Positions 22,285-33,676 of a stretch of 64,000 bases of DNA are shown here, in pieces. A model generated the notes under the pieces. It ran no database searches, had not been told where the DNA came from, and saw only the letters and a list, made by a program, of their open reading frames with translations. A program made the position numbers and the translations under genes. Location: assembly GCF_000689395.1 (NCBI RefSeq), contig NZ_HG966617.1:1487274-1551273 (forward strand), read 5' to 3'. This DNA comes from Candidatus Phaeomarinobacter ectocarpi (GTDB lineage Bacteria > Pseudomonadota > Alphaproteobacteria > CGMCC-115125). Position 1 is the first letter of the stretch. The number at the start of each line of letters is the position of its first letter.

Positions 22285-23304
22285 ATGACACTTATTCTCA
22301 GATTTCTTTCACCTCTCGCAGTGCTCGTGGCTATGTGGCTGCCGTCTGCTGCATCTGCGCAGACATGTCCCATCGATCGACCGGTGGTCTTTGCAGGTCT
22401 CGACTGGGACTCCGCCCGTTTTCACAATGCGGTTGCGGAGCGGCTTCTCTCTGCCGGCTATGGATGCGAAACGGCCAACATTCCAGGTTCCACCATTCCT
22501 CTCACCAACGGTCTCGCCCGCGGCGACATTGATGTGATGATGGAAGTCTGGCGCAACAATCTGGCTGCCGCCTGGGTCAAGGCTGTGGATCGTGGTCAGG
22601 TTGTGGATATCGGCGCCAACTTCCCCGACGCCGTGCAGGGCTGGTACGTGCCTCGCTATGTGGTGGAAGGGCCTGACGCCCCTGCCCCGGATCTAAAGCA
22701 TGTCAGCGACCTGCCCAACTACACGGACCTGTTCAAGGACCGCGAAGAGCCGGGCAAAGGCCGGTTCTACAATTGCATAACCGGTTGGTCCTGCGAGATC
22801 GTCAATACGCGCAAGCTCAAGGCGTATGGACTTGATGATCTGTACACAAACTTTCGCTCCGGTACGAGCGAAGCGCTGTCAGCTGCCGTTGCTGGCGCTG
22901 TCCGGCGCAAACGTCCGATCCTGTTCTACTACTGGGAGCCAACATGGCTGGCCGGGCTGCATGACCTCGTAAGGCTGGAAGAACCCGCCTACGATCAGGA
23001 TGCCTTCAGCGCCTTGCGGGACCCGGACCTGCCCCTGCTGACCGGCGTGGAATATCCCGTTGCGGCGGTTGCGATTGGCGTGAACACCGAGTTTGAAGCA
23101 GCGGCGCCAGATATCATCGACCTGCTGAAAGCGTACAACACCACGTCGCAAATGGTATCCAATGTGCTGGCGCAAATGCGGGAAAACGACCTGTCGGATG
23201 AGGAAGCTGCCGATTGGTTTCTCTCAACCCATCCTGACCACTGGGCCGACTGGGTGTCAGACGATGCACGAGCACGCATTCTTGCGGCTCTGCCCGAACA
23301 GTAA
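22285..23304 (+). CDS. proX: Glycine betaine/proline-type ABC transporter substrate-binding protein
   Basis: Periplasmic binding protein of the ProX/OpuAC family, 339 residues. A signal peptide (LRFLSPLAVLVAMWLPSAASA) is cut near residue 26. The mature part shows the LDWDSARFHNAVAERLL opening, GDIDVMMEVWRNN, and RPILFYYWEPTWL, where aromatic residues would box the quaternary ammonium group. It is first in a proX-proW-proV operon. The substrate may be glycine betaine, choline or proline; sequence alone does not separate them. Confidence 0.9.
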   Translation: MTLILRFLSPLAVLVAMWLPSAASAQTCPIDRPVVFAGLDWDSARFHNAVAERLLSAGYGCETANIPGSTIPLTNGLARGDIDVMMEVWRNNLAAAWVKAVDRGQVVDIGANFPDAVQGWYVPRYVVEGPDAPAPDLKHVSDLPNYTDLFKDREEPGKGRFYNCITGWSCEIVNTRKLKAYGLDDLYTNFRSGTSEALSAAVAGAVRRKRPILFYYWEPTWLAGLHDLVRLEEPAYDQDAFSALRDPDLPLLTGVEYPVAAVAIGVNTEFEAAAPDIIDLLKAYNTTSQMVSNVLAQMRENDLSDEEAADWFLSTHPDHWADWVSDDARARILAALPEQ

Positions 23305-23313
23305 GGCGACATC

Positions 23314-24174
23314 TTGTTTCCCGATTTCGGCAGCCCCCTGCGAGACGCCGCCAACGCGGCGATTGACTGGCTGATCATTACCCATGGCAACAGCTTTGAC
23401 GCTGTGTCCGATGCCTTGCTGGGAGCCTTTCTGTTCGTCGAATTGCCGCTCCGCGCCATGCCTCCCTGGGCTGTGTTGCTGGTGGTCGCAATTCTGGCCT
23501 TTGCGGCGTCCCGCAAAATCCTGCTGACCCTCATATGCACCGGCGGTATGTGGCTGCTGGGCGCGCTTGGGGTCTGGGATGAGGCCATGCAGAGCCTTGC
23601 CATTGTGCTGGTATCGGTTGGCGTGTGCGCCGTCTTTGGCGTGCCGCTTGGCATTGCCATGGCCAAAAGCGCGACGGTCCGCCGAATGCTCTCGCCGGTG
23701 CTGGACCTGATGCAGACCATTCCCAGCTTTGTCTATCTCATTCCCGTCGCCATGTTGCTGGGCCTCGGCAAGGTCCCGGCGATCCTGGCGACCGTGGTCT
23801 ATGCGCTGCCCCCTCTCATTCGCCTGACGGATCTGGGCCTTCGCCTGATCGAGCAGGAGTTGCTGGAGGCAGCAGATGCCTTCGGCGCCACCGCGATGCA
23901 GCGCCTCGTGTCTGTCGAATTGCCCCTTGCGGCCCCCAACATTCTGCAGGGCATCAATCAGACAACGATGATGGCACTGGCAATGGTCGTTATCGCGTCC
24001 ATGGTGGGAGCCCCCGGCCTAGGTCAGACGGTTCTGGAAGGGCTGCAACGCGCCGACGTTGGCAAGGGATTGATCGGCGGATTGTCCATTGTGTTGCTGG
24101 CCATCGTGCTGGATCGCATTACCCAGGCTTTCGGTTCCCGTCGCCTGACGTCGCGCGGAGATGACACGCCATGA
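23314..24174 (+). CDS. proW: ABC transporter permease, glycine betaine/proline type
   Basis: Inner-membrane permease with about six helices, 286 residues, of the ProW family. The EAA loop is visible as LEAADAFGATAMQRLVSVELPLAAPNI near residues 185-210. The start is TTG at 23314, nine bases after the proX stop with AAGGCGAC before it; the first ATG would cut the N-terminal cytoplasmic segment. The stop overlaps proV (ATGA), so the operon is translationally coupled. Confidence 0.9.
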   Translation: MFPDFGSPLRDAANAAIDWLIITHGNSFDAVSDALLGAFLFVELPLRAMPPWAVLLVVAILAFAASRKILLTLICTGGMWLLGALGVWDEAMQSLAIVLVSVGVCAVFGVPLGIAMAKSATVRRMLSPVLDLMQTIPSFVYLIPVAMLLGLGKVPAILATVVYALPPLIRLTDLGLRLIEQELLEAADAFGATAMQRLVSVELPLAAPNILQGINQTTMMALAMVVIASMVGAPGLGQTVLEGLQRADVGKGLIGGLSIVLLAIVLDRITQAFGSRRLTSRGDDTP

Positions 24175-25001
24175 TCTCCATCGATCAGGCATCGCTCCTG
24201 TTTGGCAGCAATCCTGGGGCGGTGCGTCAGGCGGTCGTCGCCGCACGCCAAAGTGCCGGCCGCGACCGCATACGGGATCAATTGGGTGTGACTTTGGCGC
24301 TCGACGACGTGTCACTGGACATCAAGGACGGTGAACTGTTCGTAGTCATGGGCCTGTCGGGCTCCGGCAAGTCCACACTGGTCCGCCTGATCAATGGCCT
24401 TTTGTTGCCGCACGCGGGATCCGTGACTGTGGATGGCGTGACTGTGAGTGCGCTGTCCAAGCCGGACCTGATTGCCTTCCGGCGCGAGCGGATCGCCATG
24501 GTCTTCCAGAGCTTTGCCCTGTTCCCACACCGCACGGTTGGAGAGAACGCGGCGTTTGGTCTTACGGTGGCTGGCATGAACAAGGCTGACCGGGAGGCAC
24601 GCGCCAGCAAATGGCTGGAACGTGTGGGCCTGGGGTCTCACGCCGGGTCCTACCCGCACCAGCTGTCAGGGGGCATGCGCCAAAGGGTCGGTCTGGCCCG
24701 GGCCCTATGTGTCGAGTCGCCTATCATGCTGCTTGATGAGCCGTTTTCTGCACTGGACCCCATCACACGCGTTGACCTGCAGGACCTCCTGCTGGAGCTC
24801 CAGTCGGAACTGGCCCGCACCATCGTGTTTGTGACCCATGACTTCTCGGAAGCTGCCCGTCTGGCGGACCGTATGGCTGTTCTTGAGAACGGGCGCGTTG
24901 CCCAGATCGGGACCCCTGCAGCCATCAGGTCGGCCCCGGCCACGAGCCACGTGGCCCGCTTTATTGAAGCAGCGACGCAAACAGTCCCGTCATCCGTCTG
25001 A
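24171..25001 (+). CDS. proV: ABC transporter ATP-binding protein, glycine betaine/proline type
   Basis: Energises the ProXWV importer. The 276-residue protein has Walker A GLSGSGKST (about 60-68), Q-loop in FQSFALFPH, signature LSGGMRQRVGLARAL, Walker B IMLLDEPFSALD and switch H in FVTHDFSEA. It ends without the CBS domains that sense ionic strength in longer ProV/OpuAA proteins, so osmotic gating by that route is unlikely. A promoter-like element begins four bases after its stop. Confidence 0.92.
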   Translation: MISIDQASLLFGSNPGAVRQAVVAARQSAGRDRIRDQLGVTLALDDVSLDIKDGELFVVMGLSGSGKSTLVRLINGLLLPHAGSVTVDGVTVSALSKPDLIAFRRERIAMVFQSFALFPHRTVGENAAFGLTVAGMNKADREARASKWLERVGLGSHAGSYPHQLSGGMRQRVGLARALCVESPIMLLDEPFSALDPITRVDLQDLLLELQSELARTIVFVTHDFSEAARLADRMAVLENGRVAQIGTPAAIRSAPATSHVARFIEAATQTVPSSV

Positions 25002-25004
25002 AAA

Positions 25005-25032
25005 TGATCCAAATCGGGTCTCGAGCCGTAGA
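25005..25032 (+). promoter_or_regulatory. Candidate ECF11 (RpoE/ChrR-type) promoter for the photolyase operon
   Basis: TGATCC at 25005-25010, a 16-base spacer, then CGTAGA at 25027-25032. This fits the -35 TGATCC and -10 (CG)TAAG/TA-type pattern known for RpoE of Rhodobacter sphaeroides and ECF11 relatives. It lies 73 bases before the photolyase start and directly after proV. A copy with the same spacing lies at 33649-33676 on the minus strand. Confidence 0.65.
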
Positions 25033-25104
25033 AAAACCATACTGAATTTGCGTCAACTGACGCACCATTTGCCCCAATTTCGGGGCTTTGCATTGGGTTT
25101 TCCT

Positions 25105-26556
25105 TTGAGCAACGACCCCGCCATTGTCTGGTTCAGGCAGGATCTGCGTATTGCAGACAACCGGGCCCTGTCGGCTGCCGCAGCATCCGGGCAGCCGGTC
25201 ATCGCACTGTACATTCTCGACGATGAGACGCCGGGCGAGTGGCGCATGGGCGGGGCCAGCCGCTGGTGGCTGCACCACTCTTTGGCGTCGTTGACAGCTG
25301 ACCTTGATGGGCTTGACGCGCAACTGATCCTGCGCACGGGCAACGCGGCAGATGTGCTCAAGGACGTCGTCTCCCAGACCCAAGCCACAGCGGTTCATTG
25401 GAACCGGTTGTACGAGCCCTATGCCATTGCGCGGGACAAGGACGTGAAGGCTGACCTGCAGGCAATGGACATTGAGGTGACCAGTTACAACGCCAGCCTT
25501 TTGTTCGAGCCATGGACGGCAAAAACCAAGACCGGTGGACCCTATCGTGTGTTTTCGCCCTTCTGGCGCAATTGCATGCGAGAGCTGGACGCGCCGGATC
25601 ACCCAAAATCTGCGCCGAAAAAACTGACCTCTCTCAAGGACAGGCCGGCTTCTGACACGTTGGAAGACTGGCACCTACTGCCAACCAAGCCGGACTGGGC
25701 CGGCGGTCTGGAAGAGCAATGGTCGCCTGGCGCGACCGGCGCCGCCGCAAGACTGGACCGCTTTCTGGACAAGGCAGCTGGCGGTTACAAGGAAGGCCGC
25801 GACATGCCCGGTATTGATGGCACGTCCGGCCTGTCTCCCCATTTGCACTTTGGCGAAATCAGTCCCCGCCATGTCTACTGGGCGGCAAGGGCACATGCAG
25901 ACGAGTATCCGGCCCACTCAAAGAGCGTGGACAAGTTCGTTGCTGAACTTGGCTGGCGCGAATTTGCTTACCACCTGCTCTATCACTTCCCGAGCATTCC
26001 AACCGACAACTATCAGGACAAGTTTGACGATTTCCCCTGGCGCGAAGACGCAGACGGCCTCGCCGCCTGGCAACAGGGCATGACGGGATACCCCATGGTG
26101 GACGCCGGCATGCGTCAGCTCTGGCAGACCGGCTGGATGCACAACCGTGTACGGATGATCGTTGCCTCCTTCCTCGCCAAGCATTTGATGGTGCACTGGC
26201 GCGAGGGCGAAAGCTGGTTCTGGGATACCTTGGTGGATGCTGATCTGGCCGCCAATGCCGCCAGCTGGCAGTGGGTGGCAGGCTCCGGAGCGGATGCGGC
26301 ACCCTATTTCCGGATTTTCAATCCGATCACACAGGGAAACAAATTTGATCCGGATGGCGATTATGTTCGCAAATACGTGCCGGAACTTGCAAAACTACCC
26401 AACAAATATTTGTTCTCTCCCTGGACCGCTCCAGACGACGTGCTTGATCAGGCAGGCATTGTTCTGGGAACGGACTACCCACGACCCATTGTAGATCACT
26501 CAGACGCGCGCGAGCGTGCCCTGGGTGGATATAGCGACATCAAGAAGGCCAGCTGA
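25105..26556 (+). CDS. phrB: Deoxyribodipyrimidine photolyase (cryptochrome/photolyase family)
   Basis: FAD-dependent, light-driven repair of UV pyrimidine dimers, 483 residues. The N-terminal antenna domain opens SNDPAIVWFRQDLRIADN; the FAD domain shows LHFGEISPR, WREFAYHLLYHFPSIPTDNY, GMRQLWQTGWMHNRVRMIV and ASWQWVAGSGADAAPYFRIF, the classic CPD photolyase blocks with the tryptophan chain. The frame is open back to 24838, but those codons shadow proV. TTG at 25105 gives the N-terminus of close relatives (SNDPAIVWF); TTG at 25093 is an alternative. It is first gene of a six-gene oxidative/photo-stress operon. Confidence 0.94.
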   Translation: MSNDPAIVWFRQDLRIADNRALSAAAASGQPVIALYILDDETPGEWRMGGASRWWLHHSLASLTADLDGLDAQLILRTGNAADVLKDVVSQTQATAVHWNRLYEPYAIARDKDVKADLQAMDIEVTSYNASLLFEPWTAKTKTGGPYRVFSPFWRNCMRELDAPDHPKSAPKKLTSLKDRPASDTLEDWHLLPTKPDWAGGLEEQWSPGATGAAARLDRFLDKAAGGYKEGRDMPGIDGTSGLSPHLHFGEISPRHVYWAARAHADEYPAHSKSVDKFVAELGWREFAYHLLYHFPSIPTDNYQDKFDDFPWREDADGLAAWQQGMTGYPMVDAGMRQLWQTGWMHNRVRMIVASFLAKHLMVHWREGESWFWDTLVDADLAANAASWQWVAGSGADAAPYFRIFNPITQGNKFDPDGDYVRKYVPELAKLPNKYLFSPWTAPDDVLDQAGIVLGTDYPRPIVDHSDARERALGGYSDIKKAS

Positions 26557-26621
26557 TTGCTTGCCTCATATTCGCGGCGCTCAGGTGCCGGGCGCCTTGC
26601 GTAGAAAGACACTGACTGACC

Positions 26622-27926
26622 ATGAAAATTGCAATTGCCGGAACTGGTATCTCCTCCAACGCAGCAGCCCACGTGCTGTCGCGTCATCACGAGGTGACGA
26701 TTTATGAAAAGCAGGACCGGATCGGTGGTCATTCAAACACGGTGGACGTGGACTATGATGGGGTGACCATCCCGGTCGATACCGGATTCATTGTCTACAA
26801 CGAGCACAATTATCCGCGCATGACGAAGCTGTTTGCCGAGCTTGGTGTGGAGACGCAGGACAGCGACATGAGCTTCGCTGTCTCCACCATGGGTGGCGCA
26901 TTCGAATGGTCCGGCCGCACGGTGCGCAGCGTGTTTGCCCAACGGCGTAATCTGTTCAGCCCGGGCTTCCTTTTCATGCTGCGGGAAATCTTCCGGTTCA
27001 ACCGCCTTGCCCGTGAGGATCTGGAGACAGGCCTCAAGGAAAGCGTGTCGCTTGGTGACTATCTTTCAAGCCACAAGTTTTCGGCACGCTTCAAGCGCGA
27101 TTATCTGTTGCCCATGGGCGCTGCTATCTGGTCCACACCTGCCAGTGAGATGCTGCTGTTCCCGGCACGCAGCTTTCTGGATTTCTTCCGCAACCACCGT
27201 CTTATTGACGAGGACCGTCCCCAATGGCGCACCGTCACGGGTGGCTCTCGCTCCTATGTCAAAAAGCTGACGGCTCCCTATGCCGACCGTATCCAGCTTG
27301 GTGTCGGCATTGCCAAGGTAACCCGGACCGATGGCCGCGTGCAGGTGACGGATACCAACGGCAAGACGGAGGAATACGATCACATCGTGATTGGGGCGCA
27401 TTCGGACGAAGCCCTGGCCATGTTGTCTGATGCGTCTGACGCTGAAAACAGGCTGCTTGGCGCCGTGCGCTACGGGCCCAACAAGGTCTATCTGCACCGT
27501 GACCCCGCGCTGATGCCACGCCGCCGGCGTGCCTGGTCTGCATGGAACTATCTGTCACCGGGCCGCATCGACAAGGGCAGTCACCTGTCGGTGACCTACT
27601 GGATGAACCAGCTTCAGGGCATTGATGAGAAGTATCCGCTGTTTGTGACGCTGAATCCGGTGGCCCCGCCCAAGGCAGAACTGACCTTTGCGGAACTGAA
27701 CTACGATCATCCGATGTTTGATGCGCAGGCGCTGGATGCCCAAAAGGAAATCTCATCTCTGCAGGGCCAGAGAAATACCTGGTTCTGTGGCGCGTGGCTT
27801 GGCTATGGATTCCATGAAGATGGATTGTCCTCCGGCCTGGATGTCGCTCAGATGTTGCTCGACGCCAATGCAGATGACACTGCGGCACCCGCAACCATCG
27901 AACCATTTGTCGAGGCCGCCGAGTGA
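26622..27926 (+). CDS. NAD(P)/FAD-binding oxidoreductase (COG2907)
   Basis: A 434-residue flavoprotein with the N-terminal dinucleotide-binding motif GTGISSNAAAHVLS and the second FAD segment GGHSNTVDVDYDGVTIPVDTGF, as in amine-oxidase-type and desaturase-type enzymes. It belongs to the COG2907 group that is nearly always found with DUF1365 and a cyclopropane-fatty-acyl synthase. In a few bacteria this trio has been linked to furan fatty acid or other modified lipid formation; the reaction here is not shown. It starts 65 bases after photolyase and overlaps the DUF1365 start (GTGA). Confidence 0.9.
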   Translation: MKIAIAGTGISSNAAAHVLSRHHEVTIYEKQDRIGGHSNTVDVDYDGVTIPVDTGFIVYNEHNYPRMTKLFAELGVETQDSDMSFAVSTMGGAFEWSGRTVRSVFAQRRNLFSPGFLFMLREIFRFNRLAREDLETGLKESVSLGDYLSSHKFSARFKRDYLLPMGAAIWSTPASEMLLFPARSFLDFFRNHRLIDEDRPQWRTVTGGSRSYVKKLTAPYADRIQLGVGIAKVTRTDGRVQVTDTNGKTEEYDHIVIGAHSDEALAMLSDASDAENRLLGAVRYGPNKVYLHRDPALMPRRRRAWSAWNYLSPGRIDKGSHLSVTYWMNQLQGIDEKYPLFVTLNPVAPPKAELTFAELNYDHPMFDAQALDAQKEISSLQGQRNTWFCGAWLGYGFHEDGLSSGLDVAQMLLDANADDTAAPATIEPFVEAAE

Positions 27927-28813
27927 CGGGCACCCTACCCACGCCTGCGATCAACGACCCGGCCGCCCGGTTGTATTTCGGGCGGGTCATCCACGCACGC
28001 TCGCGCCCGCGCAAGCATCGCTTTGCCTACAAGGTCTTTTCAATGCTGATCGACATCGATCGGCTTGAAGATGTGGCGAAGACCAGCACCTTGTTCTCCC
28101 TCGACCGCTTTAACCTGTTCAGCTTTCATCGCCGGGATCACGGTCCCAAAGACGGTAGCTCATTGCGCGCGCACATAGACACCCTGCTGGGTGATGCGGG
28201 CCTGCCGGCACCCGCCCAAATCAAGCTGCTCTGCTATCCGCGTATTCTTGGATATGTGTTCAATCCGCTGTCGGTCTATTACTGCTACGATGCTGCGGGC
28301 CAATTGTCCGTACTGGTCTATCAGGTCCACAACACGTTCGGCGACGTGCACAGCTACATCGCACCTGTTGCGGAGGCTGAGCAAAAAGGCCGCGTGGTGC
28401 ATCAGTCCCGGGACAAGAACCTGCACGTCTCGCCTTTCGTTGGCATGGCGGCGTCCTATCACTTTGCTCTGGATGACCCTGCAGAGACGATTGGCATCCG
28501 CATCCGTGAAACCGATGAAGACGGGCCCTTTCTACTGGCGACGTTTGACGGCAAGGCACGCGCATTTTCAACCGCGACGCTGGCCCTGGCGTTTGTCAAG
28601 TATCCCCTCATGACACTCAAGATTGTCGGCGCCATTCACTTTGAAGCATTGCGGTTATGGCTCAAAGGCGTGCCGTTTTTCTCAAGCCCGCTGCAGGCGC
28701 CCGCGCGGTCCAGTTTGGACGGTCCGTCGCAAGGGGCACGGGGAAATGCAATCGACCCTGCAAAGGCGCCCGAAAAACGCTATACTGATCCCGCGAAAAC
28801 AAAGGCAGCCTGA
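27923..28813 (+). CDS. DUF1365 domain-containing protein
   Basis: A 296-residue protein opening with the family's LYFGRVIHARSRPRKHRFAYKVF and containing LLCYPRILGYVFNPLSVYYCYD and QVHNTFGDVHSYI, the most conserved DUF1365 blocks. The Ser/His/Tyr-rich pattern hints at an enzyme of unknown reaction working on membrane lipids along with its two flanking genes. It starts with GTG overlapping the COG2907 stop and ends five bases before the cyclopropane synthase, so all three are likely made together. Confidence 0.93.
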   Translation: MTGTLPTPAINDPAARLYFGRVIHARSRPRKHRFAYKVFSMLIDIDRLEDVAKTSTLFSLDRFNLFSFHRRDHGPKDGSSLRAHIDTLLGDAGLPAPAQIKLLCYPRILGYVFNPLSVYYCYDAAGQLSVLVYQVHNTFGDVHSYIAPVAEAEQKGRVVHQSRDKNLHVSPFVGMAASYHFALDDPAETIGIRIRETDEDGPFLLATFDGKARAFSTATLALAFVKYPLMTLKIVGAIHFEALRLWLKGVPFFSSPLQAPARSSLDGPSQGARGNAIDPAKAPEKRYTDPAKTKAA

Positions 28814-28818
28814 GCGAC

Positions 28819-30078
28819 ATGACTACCACCGATATGTCAGATGTTGCCGCGCAGGGACGCCCTGCGCCCGTTGTGGCAACCCCGGAAGTTCTGGACGGTC
28901 TGTCTGGTGTGCCGCGTCTCGTGCGCTTTTCATTGCGCATGCTCCTCAATATCCAAAGCGGCAGCCTGACAGTCCGCTTGCCGGATCAAGCGCCCTTGCG
29001 ATTTGAGGGCAAGGAACCCGGCGACCAAGGCGAAGTGGAACTGAAGCACTATCGTGCTGTGCGCAGGCTGCTGGCCGGCGGCGGCATCGGTTTTGGAGAG
29101 GCCTACATTGCTGGCGACGTGGACTCGCCCGATATGGCGAAGTTCCTGGAAGTGTTTGCGCGCAACCGGACCATGATGCTGCAGGCGTTGCGCATGGGGC
29201 TTTTTGACTGGGTGAACAAGCTCTATCACAAGCTTCACAAGAACACGCGCAAGGGGTCCGAGCGCAACATACATGCCCATTATGATCTGGGCAATGAGTT
29301 CTATGGCCTTTGGCTTGATCCGACGATGACCTATTCGTCCGCGATTTTTAAGCCCGGCATGAACGATCTGGCCTCAGCTCAGCGTGAAAAATATCGCGCG
29401 CTGGCTGACAGCATGCAGCTGGAAGCCTCTCACCACGTGCTGGAAATCGGCTGCGGCTGGGGTGGCTTTGCGGAATATGCGGCCGGCGAAATCGGCTGCC
29501 GTGTCACCGGCATCACCATCTCCAAGGAGCAATTAGAGTTTGCCCGCGAGCGCGTGCAGCGCGCCGGGCTGAGCGACAAGGTCGAGATCCGCTACCAGGA
29601 TTATCGCGACGTCAGCGAGACGTTTGACCGGGTTGCCTCGATCGAGATGTTTGAAGCGGTTGGCGAGGATTATTGGCCAACCTACTTCCAGCAGGTCCGC
29701 AACGTGCTCAAGCCCGGCGGCAAGGCCGGCTTGCAGATCATCACCATTGCGGATGAAGCCTATGAGGATTATCGCAATACGGCGGACTTCATTCAGCGCT
29801 ACATATTCCCCGGTGGCATGCTTCCCTCGCCTACGGCCCTGCGTGACCAGATCAGCAATGCGGGACTGGTTCTGACCGGTAACCGGGAATTTGGACGTGA
29901 CTACGCCCGCACCCTGCGCATGTGGCAGGAGAGTTTCGCTGAAGCATGGCCGAAGATCGAACCGCTTGGATTTGACGAGCGGTTCAAGCGGCTCTGGCAC
30001 TTCTATCTGGCCTATTGCGAGGCTGGCTTCAGTTCAGCCAATACCGACGTGACCCAGGTCACACTAGCGCGCGCCTGA
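28819..30078 (+). CDS. cfa: Cyclopropane-fatty-acyl-phospholipid synthase family protein
   Basis: SAM-dependent methyltransferase of the Cfa family, 419 residues. An N-terminal lipid-binding domain (about 1-130) precedes the SAM site VLEIGCGWGGFAEYA and the conserved RNIHAHYDLGNEFYGLWLDPTMTYS and IEMFEAVGEDYW segments. It methylates double bonds of membrane phospholipid acyl chains, giving cyclopropane or, in some clusters, methylated intermediates. In Rhodobacter a cfa gene is a direct target of the singlet-oxygen sigma factor, matching its place here behind the candidate ECF11 promoter. Confidence 0.94.
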   Translation: MTTTDMSDVAAQGRPAPVVATPEVLDGLSGVPRLVRFSLRMLLNIQSGSLTVRLPDQAPLRFEGKEPGDQGEVELKHYRAVRRLLAGGGIGFGEAYIAGDVDSPDMAKFLEVFARNRTMMLQALRMGLFDWVNKLYHKLHKNTRKGSERNIHAHYDLGNEFYGLWLDPTMTYSSAIFKPGMNDLASAQREKYRALADSMQLEASHHVLEIGCGWGGFAEYAAGEIGCRVTGITISKEQLEFARERVQRAGLSDKVEIRYQDYRDVSETFDRVASIEMFEAVGEDYWPTYFQQVRNVLKPGGKAGLQIITIADEAYEDYRNTADFIQRYIFPGGMLPSPTALRDQISNAGLVLTGNREFGRDYARTLRMWQESFAEAWPKIEPLGFDERFKRLWHFYLAYCEAGFSSANTDVTQVTLARA

Positions 30079-30087
30079 TCTCATCTG

Positions 30088-31425
30088 ATGTCCCCCCGCA
30101 CATCGACCTTCTGGTGGTACGCACTGCCGGGCCTTCCGCTCGCAGCACTTACGTTGCCGGTTTATGTGTTTGTGCCGGCCTTTTATGCCGAGCTTGGCGT
30201 GTCTCTCGCATTGATCGGCACGGTGCTGCTCGGCGTCCGGCTGCTGGACGCGGTTTCTGATCCCGCCATCGGCTTTTTGAGCGACAGACTTCGCCTTCCC
30301 GGCGGCCGCCGAAAGCCTTGGATGTTTGTGGGCCTAGTCCCCACCATGCTTGCGGTCTGGATGGTGTTCGTCCCGTCAGATACGCCGTCAGCAACCTATC
30401 TGTTTGTCTGGAGCGCGGTGCTGTCGGTTGGCTGGACCCTGATGATCCTGCCCTACAATGCGTGGGGCGCCGAACTGGCAGACGACTACGACGGTCGCAC
30501 GGCAGTCACCGCGCGACGCGAAGGCATGGTTGTGGCGGGCACGTTGCTGGCCACCGCAACGCCGGCCGTGCTGGCCGCGCTGGGGGTGATCGGAACGGCC
30601 GCCGCCCTTGAGATACTCGCGCTTGGTTTGGTTATCCTCCTGCCACTGACAGTTGCCCTGTGCCTGTGGCGCGTTCCCTCACCGCCGGACAAAAGTCATC
30701 AGCGGGTGGCGCTGGGCGCCGGTTTGCGGGCGATCGGGGCAAACAAATCCTTCGTACGGCTTGTCTCCGCCTATCTCATAAACGGGTGGGCCAACGGCCT
30801 GCCTGCAACCCTGTTTGTGCTCTTCGTCACCCACGTGCTTGTGGCACCTGAAATGGTTGGCCCGCTATTGTTCCTCTATTTCCTGTCCGGCGTGCTCGCC
30901 ATTCCCGGCTGGGTCTGGCTGTCGCGTCGATGGAGCAAGCATCGCGTCTGGGTCGGCTCGATGACGCTCGCCTGTGCGACGTTTATCTGGGTGCCATTCC
31001 TGGGCGCAGGCGATGTCCTGTGGTTCGCCGTGATCTGCGTGCTGTCGGGCTTCGCGGTCGGGGCTGACCTTGTGCTGCCGGCCGCCATTCAGGCAGACGT
31101 GGTGGATGTGGACACAGCTGACACCGGTGAACAGCGCACGGGTCTCTACTTCGCGCTCTGGAGCCTGGCCACAAAGCTCTCATTGGCGCTGGCGGCAGGC
31201 GTCGCCTTTCCCCTTCTTGCCTTTGTGGGCTTTCAGGCGGATACCGTTCCTGGCCTCGACAGCACCAACACAAATGGAAGTTTATTCGCTGTTTCAATGC
31301 TTTATGCCGGTTTGCCGGTGATCCTAAAGCTGCCAGCGCTCGTACTTATGTGGAATTTTCCATTGAGCCGGGAAGCTCAGGAAGACTTGCAGGCGCGGAT
31401 TTCAGCGGCTGCGTCCCCTTCCTGA
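30088..31425 (+). CDS. MFS transporter (glycoside-pentoside-hexuronide-type)
   Basis: A 445-residue inner-membrane carrier with about twelve helices. The loop between helices two and three reads RLLDAVSDPAIGFLSDRLRLPGGRRKPW, the signature of the GPH/MelB-like group, and TVLLGVR precedes it. Such carriers move sugars or other solutes with cations, but members located in COG2907-DUF1365-cfa clusters have no known substrate. ATG at 30088 follows the cfa stop by nine bases. Confidence 0.9.
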   Translation: MSPRTSTFWWYALPGLPLAALTLPVYVFVPAFYAELGVSLALIGTVLLGVRLLDAVSDPAIGFLSDRLRLPGGRRKPWMFVGLVPTMLAVWMVFVPSDTPSATYLFVWSAVLSVGWTLMILPYNAWGAELADDYDGRTAVTARREGMVVAGTLLATATPAVLAALGVIGTAAALEILALGLVILLPLTVALCLWRVPSPPDKSHQRVALGAGLRAIGANKSFVRLVSAYLINGWANGLPATLFVLFVTHVLVAPEMVGPLLFLYFLSGVLAIPGWVWLSRRWSKHRVWVGSMTLACATFIWVPFLGAGDVLWFAVICVLSGFAVGADLVLPAAIQADVVDVDTADTGEQRTGLYFALWSLATKLSLALAAGVAFPLLAFVGFQADTVPGLDSTNTNGSLFAVSMLYAGLPVILKLPALVLMWNFPLSREAQEDLQARISAAASPS

Positions 31426-31473
31426 TCCAATTGCGGGCCCCGGCCCCGTCAGTGGACGAGTGTGAGCTGCCTC

Positions 31474-31971
31474 ATGAGTGAGAACAGACATTACGAAGAC
31501 GCAGAAGCTGCATCGGGCCTCGAGTTGCGTCTCGAAGAGTTTTTTGACGGGTCGCTCGACGCACAGGGTGAATTCCGTGATCCCTTCGGTCGGGTGCGCA
31601 GGACATTCCACGCTCATGTCACCGGCAAGCGCGAGGGGGACACCATCCGTATCCATGAAAAATTCCACTATCACGACGGTGAAATTGATGAACGCGAATG
31701 GGTGATCCGTGCCCACGGCGATGGACGTTATACGGGCGAAGCAACAGACGTTGTGGGAGTGGCTGAAGGCAAGGTGGAAGGGCCCCGCCTGCGCTGGTCC
31801 TACCCGATTGACCTGCCCATTGGTGGCCGCGCATGGCGGCTCAACTTCGACGACGAGTTCGAGCTGTGCGAGCCGGATGCGCTGGTCAATACGGCGAGTG
31901 TAAAGAAATTTGGTCTGCCCTTCGGCACCGTCCGTCAGACGATTTCACGCCGGACGTCTTCCAGCAGCTAG
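31474..31971 (+). CDS. DUF3833 family protein
   Basis: A 165-residue protein with the DUF3833 pattern: LEEFFDGSLDAQGEFRDPFG, VTGKREGDTIRIHEKFHYHDGE, RRYTGEATDVVG-like GDGRYTGEATDVVG, LRWSYPIDLPIGGRAWRLNFDD and NTASVKKFGLPFG. Many DUF3833 members are lipoproteins, yet this one has no signal peptide or lipobox from the ATG at 31474 (or from the GTG at 31462), so it appears cytoplasmic. It ends the photolyase operon and stops four bases before the convergent SDR gene. Its role is unknown. Confidence 0.85.
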   Translation: MSENRHYEDAEAASGLELRLEEFFDGSLDAQGEFRDPFGRVRRTFHAHVTGKREGDTIRIHEKFHYHDGEIDEREWVIRAHGDGRYTGEATDVVGVAEGKVEGPRLRWSYPIDLPIGGRAWRLNFDDEFELCEPDALVNTASVKKFGLPFGTVRQTISRRTSSSS

Positions 31972-31974
31972 GCG

Positions 31975-32793
31975 CTACGCGTCGCCGGTGGGTATGTCCG
32001 GCGTCGTGTCCGGGTCAGCCCAGCCTGTCAGCTTTCGCACGAGAGCCAGCCGCCATGTAGTTGGCAGGTAGTCCAGAGCTTTGAGAACATAGGTAAAGCG
32101 ACGCGGGAACGTCAGTTCAAACCGTGTCGATGCCAATCCATCAACAATCCGGTCGGCAGCATCCTTTGATGCCATCAAGGCCGGCATCGGGAACGGATTG
32201 TTCTTTGTTGCCGGCGTGTCGATGAATCCCGGATTGACGACCTGAACCAGCAGGCCAATCGGATCAAGTTCGATGCGCAACGTCTCTGCCAGATTGATGA
32301 GCGCCGCCTTGCTGGCTCCGTATGCGGAGCTTGTGGGCAGCCCGCCATATCCTGTGACCGACGCCACCAGCGCGATCTGGCCCTTGCCCCGCGTCTTCAT
32401 GGACGCGATGGCTGGTTCCAGACAGTTGGCCACACCAACAAGGTTGACGTCGAAGGTCGATTGAAAGGCGTCCGCCTTGAAATTGCGCGCATCGATTGGC
32501 TTGAACACACCGGCGTTCAACACGCACAGCGCCACCTTGCCAAACTGATGTTCGACACGCTGGACGATGCTTTCCATCGCGGTCTTGTCTGAGACATCCC
32601 CAGCAAAGGGGCGGATCTGTCCTGGGAGGTCTTTGCTTAGCTCTGCCAGCTCAGCGAGCTCGCCGACGCGGCGAGCTGTGGCGATAACCTGCCAGCCATC
32701 CGCTGCCAGCCTCAGAGCCACATCCCGGCCAATGCCCGAGCTGGCCCCTGTGACCCATGCCACGCCATCTTCTTTTGTTACCGGGTCAGCCAT
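31975..32793 (-). CDS. SDR family NAD(P)-dependent oxidoreductase
   Basis: Short-chain dehydrogenase, 272 residues. The Rossmann motif is WVTGASSGIGRDVALRL (about 13-29), NAG appears in CVLNAGVF and the catalytic tetrad region is ASVTGYGGLPTSSAYGASKAAL with Tyr and Lys spaced by three. SDR genes of this type recur in the RpoE/ChrR gene neighbourhood. It is 67 bases behind the ChrR-like gene on the same strand and convergent with the DUF3833 gene, so a two-gene minus-strand operon is likely. Confidence 0.92.
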   Translation of the reverse strand: MADPVTKEDGVAWVTGASSGIGRDVALRLAADGWQVIATARRVGELAELAELSKDLPGQIRPFAGDVSDKTAMESIVQRVEHQFGKVALCVLNAGVFKPIDARNFKADAFQSTFDVNLVGVANCLEPAIASMKTRGKGQIALVASVTGYGGLPTSSAYGASKAALINLAETLRIELDPIGLLVQVVNPGFIDTPATKNNPFPMPALMASKDAADRIVDGLASTRFELTFPRRFTYVLKALDYLPTTWRLALVRKLTGWADPDTTPDIPTGDA

Positions 32794-32860
32794 GGGACCT
32801 CACTTTCGTGGTCGGTATTTCAGCACCCGACCATGCAGTAGATCTGGTGAGACTGAGCGC

Positions 32861-33535
32861 CTAAAGCAATGACTGGAAAATCCGGCCGATGCGCCCTGTC
32901 AGCTTCATTGGAGCCTCAGTGACCGCAAAGCAGATGCAGGTCTCGCCGCGTTCAGCAATGGGTTTGTGATCCACCGCATCGTCAGCAAGTTCCAGATCGC
33001 CGGGGCCAAAGCGGCCCGCGTCATCCGAATAGGCACCCTGAACGACCAACGTCGCTTCCATGCCCTCATGGGTGTGCTGGGGAACGGCCTTGCCCGGTTC
33101 GATACGCAACAGACGCGCGACGATACCCTCATCCTCAAATTCCTTGAGGCGATACTCGTAGGCGCCGATGCCCCGCCACTTCCACGCGATGTCAGACAGT
33201 GGCTGTCCCACAGCATGCGTCAGGGATGCAGGCAGAGGGCTTGGTGTAGGGCGCGGTGAAACGATAGGCGCTGTGGCCGTGAGCGTGTCGCCCTCTTCAA
33301 GCTGCGCCAGAAGAGCGTCCGCAGACTGTGCCCGCATGCTGACCGGCTCCGCCCGCTCCAGTGACCAACCGCCGACCTGTTCGATCCGGTCAGCCGTATG
33401 GCGCTGCTGCGGGTTCATCTCGAGATAGGTCTCTGCGAGGAGCGCTGCCGCTCTGGGCAACTGACCAAGCGCATACTGCGAGATCAACCAGTCAACACTT
33501 GGTGCGGATCGGGGTGTATGGGGCATGTGCTGCAT
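32861..33535 (-). CDS. ChrR-like cupin protein with degenerate anti-sigma zinc site
   Basis: A 224-residue relative of ChrR, the zinc-dependent anti-sigma factor that releases RpoE upon singlet oxygen. The N-terminal anti-sigma fold (about 14-80; WLISQYALGQLPRAAALLAE) aligns well, but the four zinc ligands of ChrR (His, His, Cys, Cys) fall at P12, Y37, N41 and Q44, so the site is lost. The C-terminal cupin domain (about 115-215) keeps its metal ligands H154, H156, E160 and H190 (VPQHTHEGME, VDHKPIA). No sigma factor gene is adjacent. It may act as a cupin sensor without zinc-clasped sigma binding. A start at codon 4 (33526) is also possible. Confidence 0.82.
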   Translation of the reverse strand: MQHMPHTPRSAPSVDWLISQYALGQLPRAAALLAETYLEMNPQQRHTADRIEQVGGWSLERAEPVSMRAQSADALLAQLEEGDTLTATAPIVSPRPTPSPLPASLTHAVGQPLSDIAWKWRGIGAYEYRLKEFEDEGIVARLLRIEPGKAVPQHTHEGMEATLVVQGAYSDDAGRFGPGDLELADDAVDHKPIAERGETCICFAVTEAPMKLTGRIGRIFQSLL

Positions 33536-33586
33536 TCTAAGGTTTTCGACTCATCCTTGGTGATCATGCGCGCAGTAGGGGTGCGC

Positions 33587-33619
33587 AAAACCCGCCAAAT
33601 CCCGCGGTTTTTTGCGGGG
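33587..33619 (-). other. Alternative hairpins in leader of ChrR-like gene
   Basis: In the minus-strand transcript CCCGC (33618-33614) can pair with GCGGG at 33605-33601 or with GCGGG at 33595-33591. The second option is followed by four U (33590-33587), a terminator-like arrangement. This would lie in a leader of about 105 bases. Confidence 0.4.
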
Positions 33620-33648
33620 CTTGTTGGTTATCTCTGAATTTGTCTGTA

Positions 33649-33676
33649 GATACGGCCACATAAGCTGTTTGGATCA
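33649..33676 (-). promoter_or_regulatory. Candidate ECF11-type promoter for ChrR-like gene and SDR
   Basis: Reading leftward, TGATCC (33676-33671), 16 bases, then CGTATC (33654-33649). It shares TGATCCAAA and the exact spacing with the element at 25005. It would start transcription near 33640, about 105 bases before the ChrR-like ATG. Confidence 0.62.

Follow-up and report, generated by a model that had tools for sequence, protein, structure and literature searches.

In Rhodobacter, promoters of the extracytoplasmic function (ECF) sigma factor RpoE (sigma-E), of group ECF11, have been published as TGATCC(N15)GCGTA (PMC5036791), and ECF11 sites in Pseudomonas syringae have the same spacing (PMC5507510). 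The cupin domain of the anti-sigma factor ChrR is required for sigma release in R. sphaeroides (PMC6852236), and the site at which ChrR senses singlet oxygen is disputed between oxidation of the zinc finger and the cupin domain (PMC6432622, PMC6852236). In R. sphaeroides and R. palustris, UfaM (a Cfa-family methylase), UfaD (an FAD desaturase) and UfaO (a DUF1365 protein) make a methylated furan fatty acid (PMC7380195), and R. sphaeroides mutants without the sigma-E targets for furan fatty acids have an impaired rise of sigma-E activity under singlet oxygen (PMC6852236). For ECF sigma factors that have no adjacent regulator, pairing with an anti-sigma factor is a general open problem (PMC8103513).

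A stretch of 64,000 nucleotides from Candidatus Phaeomarinobacter ectocarpi (contig NZ_HG966617.1; hereafter the window) was analysed for its island of photo-oxidative stress genes, which includes chrR2, a ChrR-family gene. Probably, the ECF11 regulon has here been rearranged into one block, with the sigma factor outside its own regulon and a sigma-driven ChrR2 giving negative feedback. Direct support comes from the promoters and their conservation, from the unlinked architecture in many families and the lack of sigma autopromoters there, from the loss of zinc ligands with the cupin site kept, and from purifying selection on the zinc-free anti-sigma domain (ASD). ChrR2 would bind and inhibit the sigma factor without zinc in the ASD and would be released through its cupin domain.

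Promoters and genes of the island

An earlier note on this sequence had described two matching, inward-facing motifs at the ends of the island. Exact TGATCC-N16-CGTA is present at 25005-25030 (plus strand) and 33651-33676 (minus strand), one at each end, and both sites have AAA directly 3' of TGATCC as described; the spans first given, 25005-25032 and 33649-33676, were each two bases too wide. The window contained three matches to this motif against 0.06 expected. In the 3.4 Mb genome the bare motif had 11 matches (none for the reversed control), while base composition predicts about 5.6, so that the bare motif discriminates poorly and carries little evidential weight. Perfect matches to the extended form, TGATCCAA-N12-GCCGTA, numbered exactly three in the whole genome (0.02 expected), at the two island ends and at a gene for an RpoH-family sigma factor, where the match lies 87 bp before the first possible start codon. 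The earlier note had expected sites at rpoH and at an ECF11 sigma gene; the first was found, the second was not. With altered spacing (N14, total 28), used as a spacing control, the extended motif had no match in the whole genome at 0-1 mismatches.

The extended motif was defined post hoc, after all three sites were known, which makes conservation across species its independent test. In other genomes of the genus, it was perfect at rpoH and on the photolyase side in G002, with one mismatch on the ChrR side; the ChrR-side site was perfect in G003, and both island-end sites were present as the bare motif in G001. The chrR2 promoter was kept in all four genus members (4/4). The proposal of an ECF11 regulon block is borne out. 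The gene content between the sites is also as first stated, with six genes on the plus strand (25108-31971) facing two on the minus strand (31975-33535). Start codons of the island genes were inferred. The features are as follows.

25005..25030, plus strand: ECF11-type promoter of the photolyase operon (TGATCC-N16-CGTA), kept in same-genus loci L104 (18017, minus strand) and L105 (18282, minus strand)
25108..26556, plus strand: phr, DNA photolyase (Pfam FAD_binding_7, DNA_photolyase; TTG start assumed)
26622..27926, plus strand: ufaD-like, COG2907-type flavoprotein, by homology the fatty acyl desaturase in furan fatty acid synthesis (Pfam Amino_oxidase/NAD_binding_8; PMC7380195)
27923..28813, plus strand: ufaO-like, DUF1365 protein, by homology the furan-ring oxygenation step (Pfam DUF1365, E 2.9e-77; PMC7380195)
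28819..30078, plus strand: ufaM-like, Cfa-family SAM methyltransferase (Pfam CMAS; NCBIfam scores below the cut-offs curated for true Cfa models)
30088..31425, plus strand: MFS_2 (GPH-type) transporter (profile search)
31319..31344, plus strand: third exact TGATCC-N16-CGTA, within the 3'-terminal part of the MFS gene, with DUF3833 starting about 90-155 bp further on (118 bp in the window)
31462..31971, plus strand: DUF3833 protein (profile search)
31975..32793, minus strand: SDR, short-chain dehydrogenase/reductase, encoded second in the chrR2-SDR operon (profile search)
32861..33535, minus strand: chrR2, anti-sigma protein of the ChrR family, with no partner sigma gene (TIGR02451, 2q1z/2z2s)
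33651..33676, minus strand: ECF11-type promoter of chrR2-SDR (TGATCC-N16-CGTA), kept in G001, G002 and G003

The motif inside the MFS gene was present in 4/4 same-genus genomes, with the codons over it conserved in all four. As 26 of 305 codon windows were equally conserved, this suggests at most that it is an internal promoter.

The island is the known ECF11 photo-oxidative stress gene set, and its promoter, its regulon genes and the furan fatty acid pathway are already known. The ECF11 core targets present in the genome were a photolyase, RSP_1087-1091-type genes, a Cfa-type methylase and rpoH. Because the predicted target rpoH lies outside the block, the description of the island as a complete regulon is unsupported.

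Upstream of the island, a glycine-betaine/choline-type ABC transporter operon (22285-25001) stops 3 bases before the photolyase promoter; its ATPase and permease neighbours are kept in G001 and G002. The chrR2 leader (33536-33645, about 110 nt) has a possible CCCGC/GCGGG hairpin, with folding that barely beats that of shuffled sequences (z -1.8). An Rfam scan of the window returned tRNAs only.

Sigma factor gene and ChrR1

The expectation that the sigma factor is encoded elsewhere proved correct. An ECF11 sigma gene is located at G000:C1:3101883-3102497, 1.58 Mb from the island, and its product has R. sphaeroides RpoE as its best PDB match (2q1z, E 3.8e-42), with E 2.8e-19 for the runner-up. 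A ChrR gene, chrR1, lies directly 3' of it (L022 6167-6877), and the island ChrR is therefore a second copy. Neither an ECF11 site (spacers 15-17) nor an EcfG-like site was found upstream of the sigma-chrR1 operon in G000, G001 or G002. The earlier note had overlooked ChrR1 beside the sigma gene, this operon without an ECF11 promoter and the loss of the ASD zinc site in the island ChrR. ChrR1 is itself losing the ASD zinc site, with only H31 and C35 left in this genome and no ligand left in G001.

Unlinked ChrR genes across the class

Among 289 genomes of the class there were 136 ChrR matches, 111 adjoining an ECF11 sigma gene and 25 not. The sampled loci comprised 20 unlinked ChrR genes from about ten families and 14 sigma genes with no chrR adjacent in the same direction; for the sigma genes, six linked pairs from genomes with an extra unlinked ChrR ('hybrid') and 39 ordinary linked pairs were also compared. 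A motif was called as TGATCC-N16-CGTA with at most one mismatch within 350 bp upstream.

An ECF11 motif was found upstream of 19 of the 20 unlinked ChrR genes, 16 of them perfect, against a resampled expectation of 0.7 % per region. Upstream of the sigma genes it was found in 0/14 unlinked loci and 0/6 hybrid pairs, compared with 30/39 ordinary linked pairs (25/28 in the initial sample, which was less selected). About ten genomes (G021, G293, G145, G264, G187, G095, G174 and G059 among them) have a single ECF11 sigma gene and a single ChrR gene that are unlinked, and the unlinked ChrR is therefore the only ChrR-type anti-sigma candidate there, at an estimated genome completeness of 90-100 %, some of the genomes being drafts. 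Sigma and chrR stand tail to tail in G229, with an ECF11 site before chrR only. Through the promoter, the survey pairs unlinked ECF sigma factors with their likely anti-sigma factors.

In G018 an ECF11 motif falls within the sigma coding sequence, shortly upstream of chrR (L114 9199-9224), and was not counted as upstream of sigma; chrR alone may be boosted there, in a possible rewiring intermediate. A relative of G021, G225 (L224), has an ECF11 sigma gene and no detectable ChrR in a draft that is 99 % complete.

ChrR2 lacks the zinc site of the anti-sigma domain

ChrR2 is a clear member of its family, scoring 162 bits against TIGR02451 (cut-off 124.5) and E 6.6e-38 against the 2z2s chain. An AlphaFold2 model had a mean pLDDT of 90.4 (94-98 in the ASD helices), and its best PDB matches were the chains of ChrR in complex with sigma, 2q1z/2z2s. 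The ASD zinc site is thought to be necessary for ChrR to restrain its sigma factor. In ChrR2 this site, H-x24-H-x3-C-x2-C, is absent: H6, H31, C35 and C38 read P/A, Y, N and Q, and the ligands are replaced in every genus member. All four cupin ligands (H141, H143, E147 and H177) are kept. Ligand numbering is that of R. sphaeroides ChrR, from the PDB chains, the first few residues of this reference in the alignment, including H6, being presumed. Natural ChrR proteins with the cupin site and no zinc finger are direct test cases for the dispute over the sensor. The mirror image of ChrR2 also occurs, in ChrR-like anti-sigma proteins at L227 and L228 (G229 and G276) with HHCC intact and no cupin ligands.

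A proposed negative-feedback circuit and its alternatives

In the proposed circuit, the left promoter would drive phr-ufaD-ufaO-ufaM-MFS-DUF3833 and the right promoter chrR2-SDR. By analogy with the R. sphaeroides system, ChrR1, ChrR2 or both would hold the sigma factor, which singlet oxygen or organic peroxides would free via the cupin domain. The sigma factor would then activate the genes for DNA repair and for furan fatty acid synthesis along with rpoH and chrR2-SDR, all of which have the promoters described above, and newly made ChrR2 would re-capture it. In place of the usual joint amplification of sigma and anti-sigma, the circuit would thus have purely negative feedback, on the anti-sigma factor. 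In a toy model run with 60 random parameter sets, the median plateau was 0.27 of maximum for the split circuit versus 0.96 for the co-amplified operon, and shut-off half-times were 0.14 and 1.08 units, respectively. Such a shift predicts a smaller response that ends sooner.

Several observations weigh against this interpretation. The unlinked ChrR of G021 has no recognizable motif (1/20), and the Fisher values for the absence of sigma motifs relative to ordinary linked pairs (3e-7 for unlinked and 6e-4 for hybrid loci) overstate independence because the loci share ancestry. Eight genomes (G158, G238, G116, G276, G013, G101, G132 and G214) have linked pairs with neither a sigma promoter nor a second ChrR, so that loss of the autopromoter alone does not imply rewiring. 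The purifying selection that speaks for the circuit (within the genus, dN/dS of 0.05-0.15 for the ASD of ChrR2, similar to its cupin domain, with a relaxed linker at about 0.4) comes from an estimate where synonymous sites are near saturation. The rule that every motif-less linked sigma gene implies an unlinked second ChrR was rejected, having failed in 8/8 genomes.

A less probable explanation, and on balance an unlikely one, is that ChrR2 no longer binds the sigma factor: its cupin domain would bind or process an oxidized lipid, or decoy ChrR1 proteases, and the ASD would be a structural remnant. Loss of all four ASD zinc ligands throughout the genus with the cupin ligands kept fits this explanation, as does the presence of a linked ChrR1 in the genus. 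ChrR2 has also diverged faster than its neighbours, with 78 % identity versus 94-97 % for SDR and UfaD. However, a remnant is at odds with an ASD under purifying selection comparable to that on the cupin domain, and in families f19 and f71 a genome encoding an ECF11 sigma factor has the zinc-free unlinked ChrR as its sole ChrR. Zinc-free ChrR proteins are also found linked to sigma (G031, G042, G303 and G108), and class I ASDs in general are often zinc-free (about 44 %, PMC7406223). It is improbable that the island is an ordinary ECF11 core-regulon cluster with a redundant chrR2 paralogue and another, unrecognized sigma promoter, since, even though the island has the same genes as the core regulon already published (PMC6852236, PMC5507510) and linked pairs without autoregulation exist, the chrR2 promoter is kept throughout the genus and before unlinked ChrR genes of about ten families, and a full scan of the sigma locus (spacers 15-17) found no ECF11 site near the sigma start and no EcfG-like site upstream.

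Beyond negative feedback by ChrR2 in this genus, a broader proposition is advanced tentatively, at rather less than even confidence: the ECF11 circuit was rewired more than once across several families of the class, with the sigma gene moving out of its regulon and the anti-sigma gene moving in, and in one lineage the sigma-driven ChrR works without zinc, sensing via the cupin domain or proteolysis and not by zinc-thiol oxidation.

Origin of the unlinked ChrR genes

Unlinked ChrR loci of families f1, f19, f91 and f117 have SDR, cysK and rhodanese genes, or a subset of these, as common neighbours, and neither cysK nor rhodanese neighbours were found at the sampled linked ChrR loci. These shared neighbours mark the same locus in the four families. 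The f91 copies have HHCC intact and are the sole ChrR of their genomes, and evidently the locus therefore encodes working anti-sigma factors there. In the ChrR tree, copies of f1, f19 and f71 formed a zinc-free clade with modest support (86/71), and those of f78 fell inside the clade of Rhodobacter-like linked ChrR genes (98/89 and 96/87). Judged from sequence, the splitting of sigma and ChrR happened at least twice, a conclusion forced by well-supported branches of the tree.

Comparison with known systems

Homologues of UfaD, UfaO and UfaM, identified by family and gene order, stand together in the island. The earlier note had ascribed to these genes a modified membrane lipid not yet defined, but the product is not undefined, because COG2907-DUF1365-Cfa matches the published UfaD-UfaO-UfaM pathway (PMC7380195). 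By family, gene order and regulation, the three genes are the predicted furan fatty acid pathway, and the score of the Cfa-type gene below the true-Cfa cut-offs is consistent with UfaM. As in R. sphaeroides and in R. palustris (RPA2569-2571, PMC7380195), genes for a DUF1365 protein, an FAD flavoprotein and a Cfa-type methylase are adjacent and, here by prediction, sigma-E-controlled; the chemistry was shown in those species, whereas here the assignment is from family, gene order and regulation.

Among the search hits examined in the open-access literature, none described an ECF11 system whose ChrR is unlinked, sigma-driven or zinc-free, and priority is not established. Sinorhizobium meliloti RpoE2 shows a similar arrangement, in which one ECF sigma factor has a linked (RsiA2) and an unlinked (RsiA1) anti-sigma factor (cited in PMC8103513). 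That system belongs to the EcfG general stress response and not to ECF11, and in the part of the source consulted it has no counterpart of the zinc loss or the regulon island (PMC8103513).

The core regulon of R. sphaeroides RpoE/ChrR (the RSP_1087-1091 operon, phrA, ufaM RSP_2144 and rpoHII) is like the system described here in its target genes, its TGATCC-N16-CGTA promoter (PMC5036791), its rpoH cascade and the ChrR fold. In R. sphaeroides, however, rpoE and chrR form one operon inside their own regulon, whereas the sigma-chrR1 operon here has no such promoter, and a second ChrR, predicted to be sigma-driven by its promoter and with an ASD that has no zinc ligands, lies within the island.

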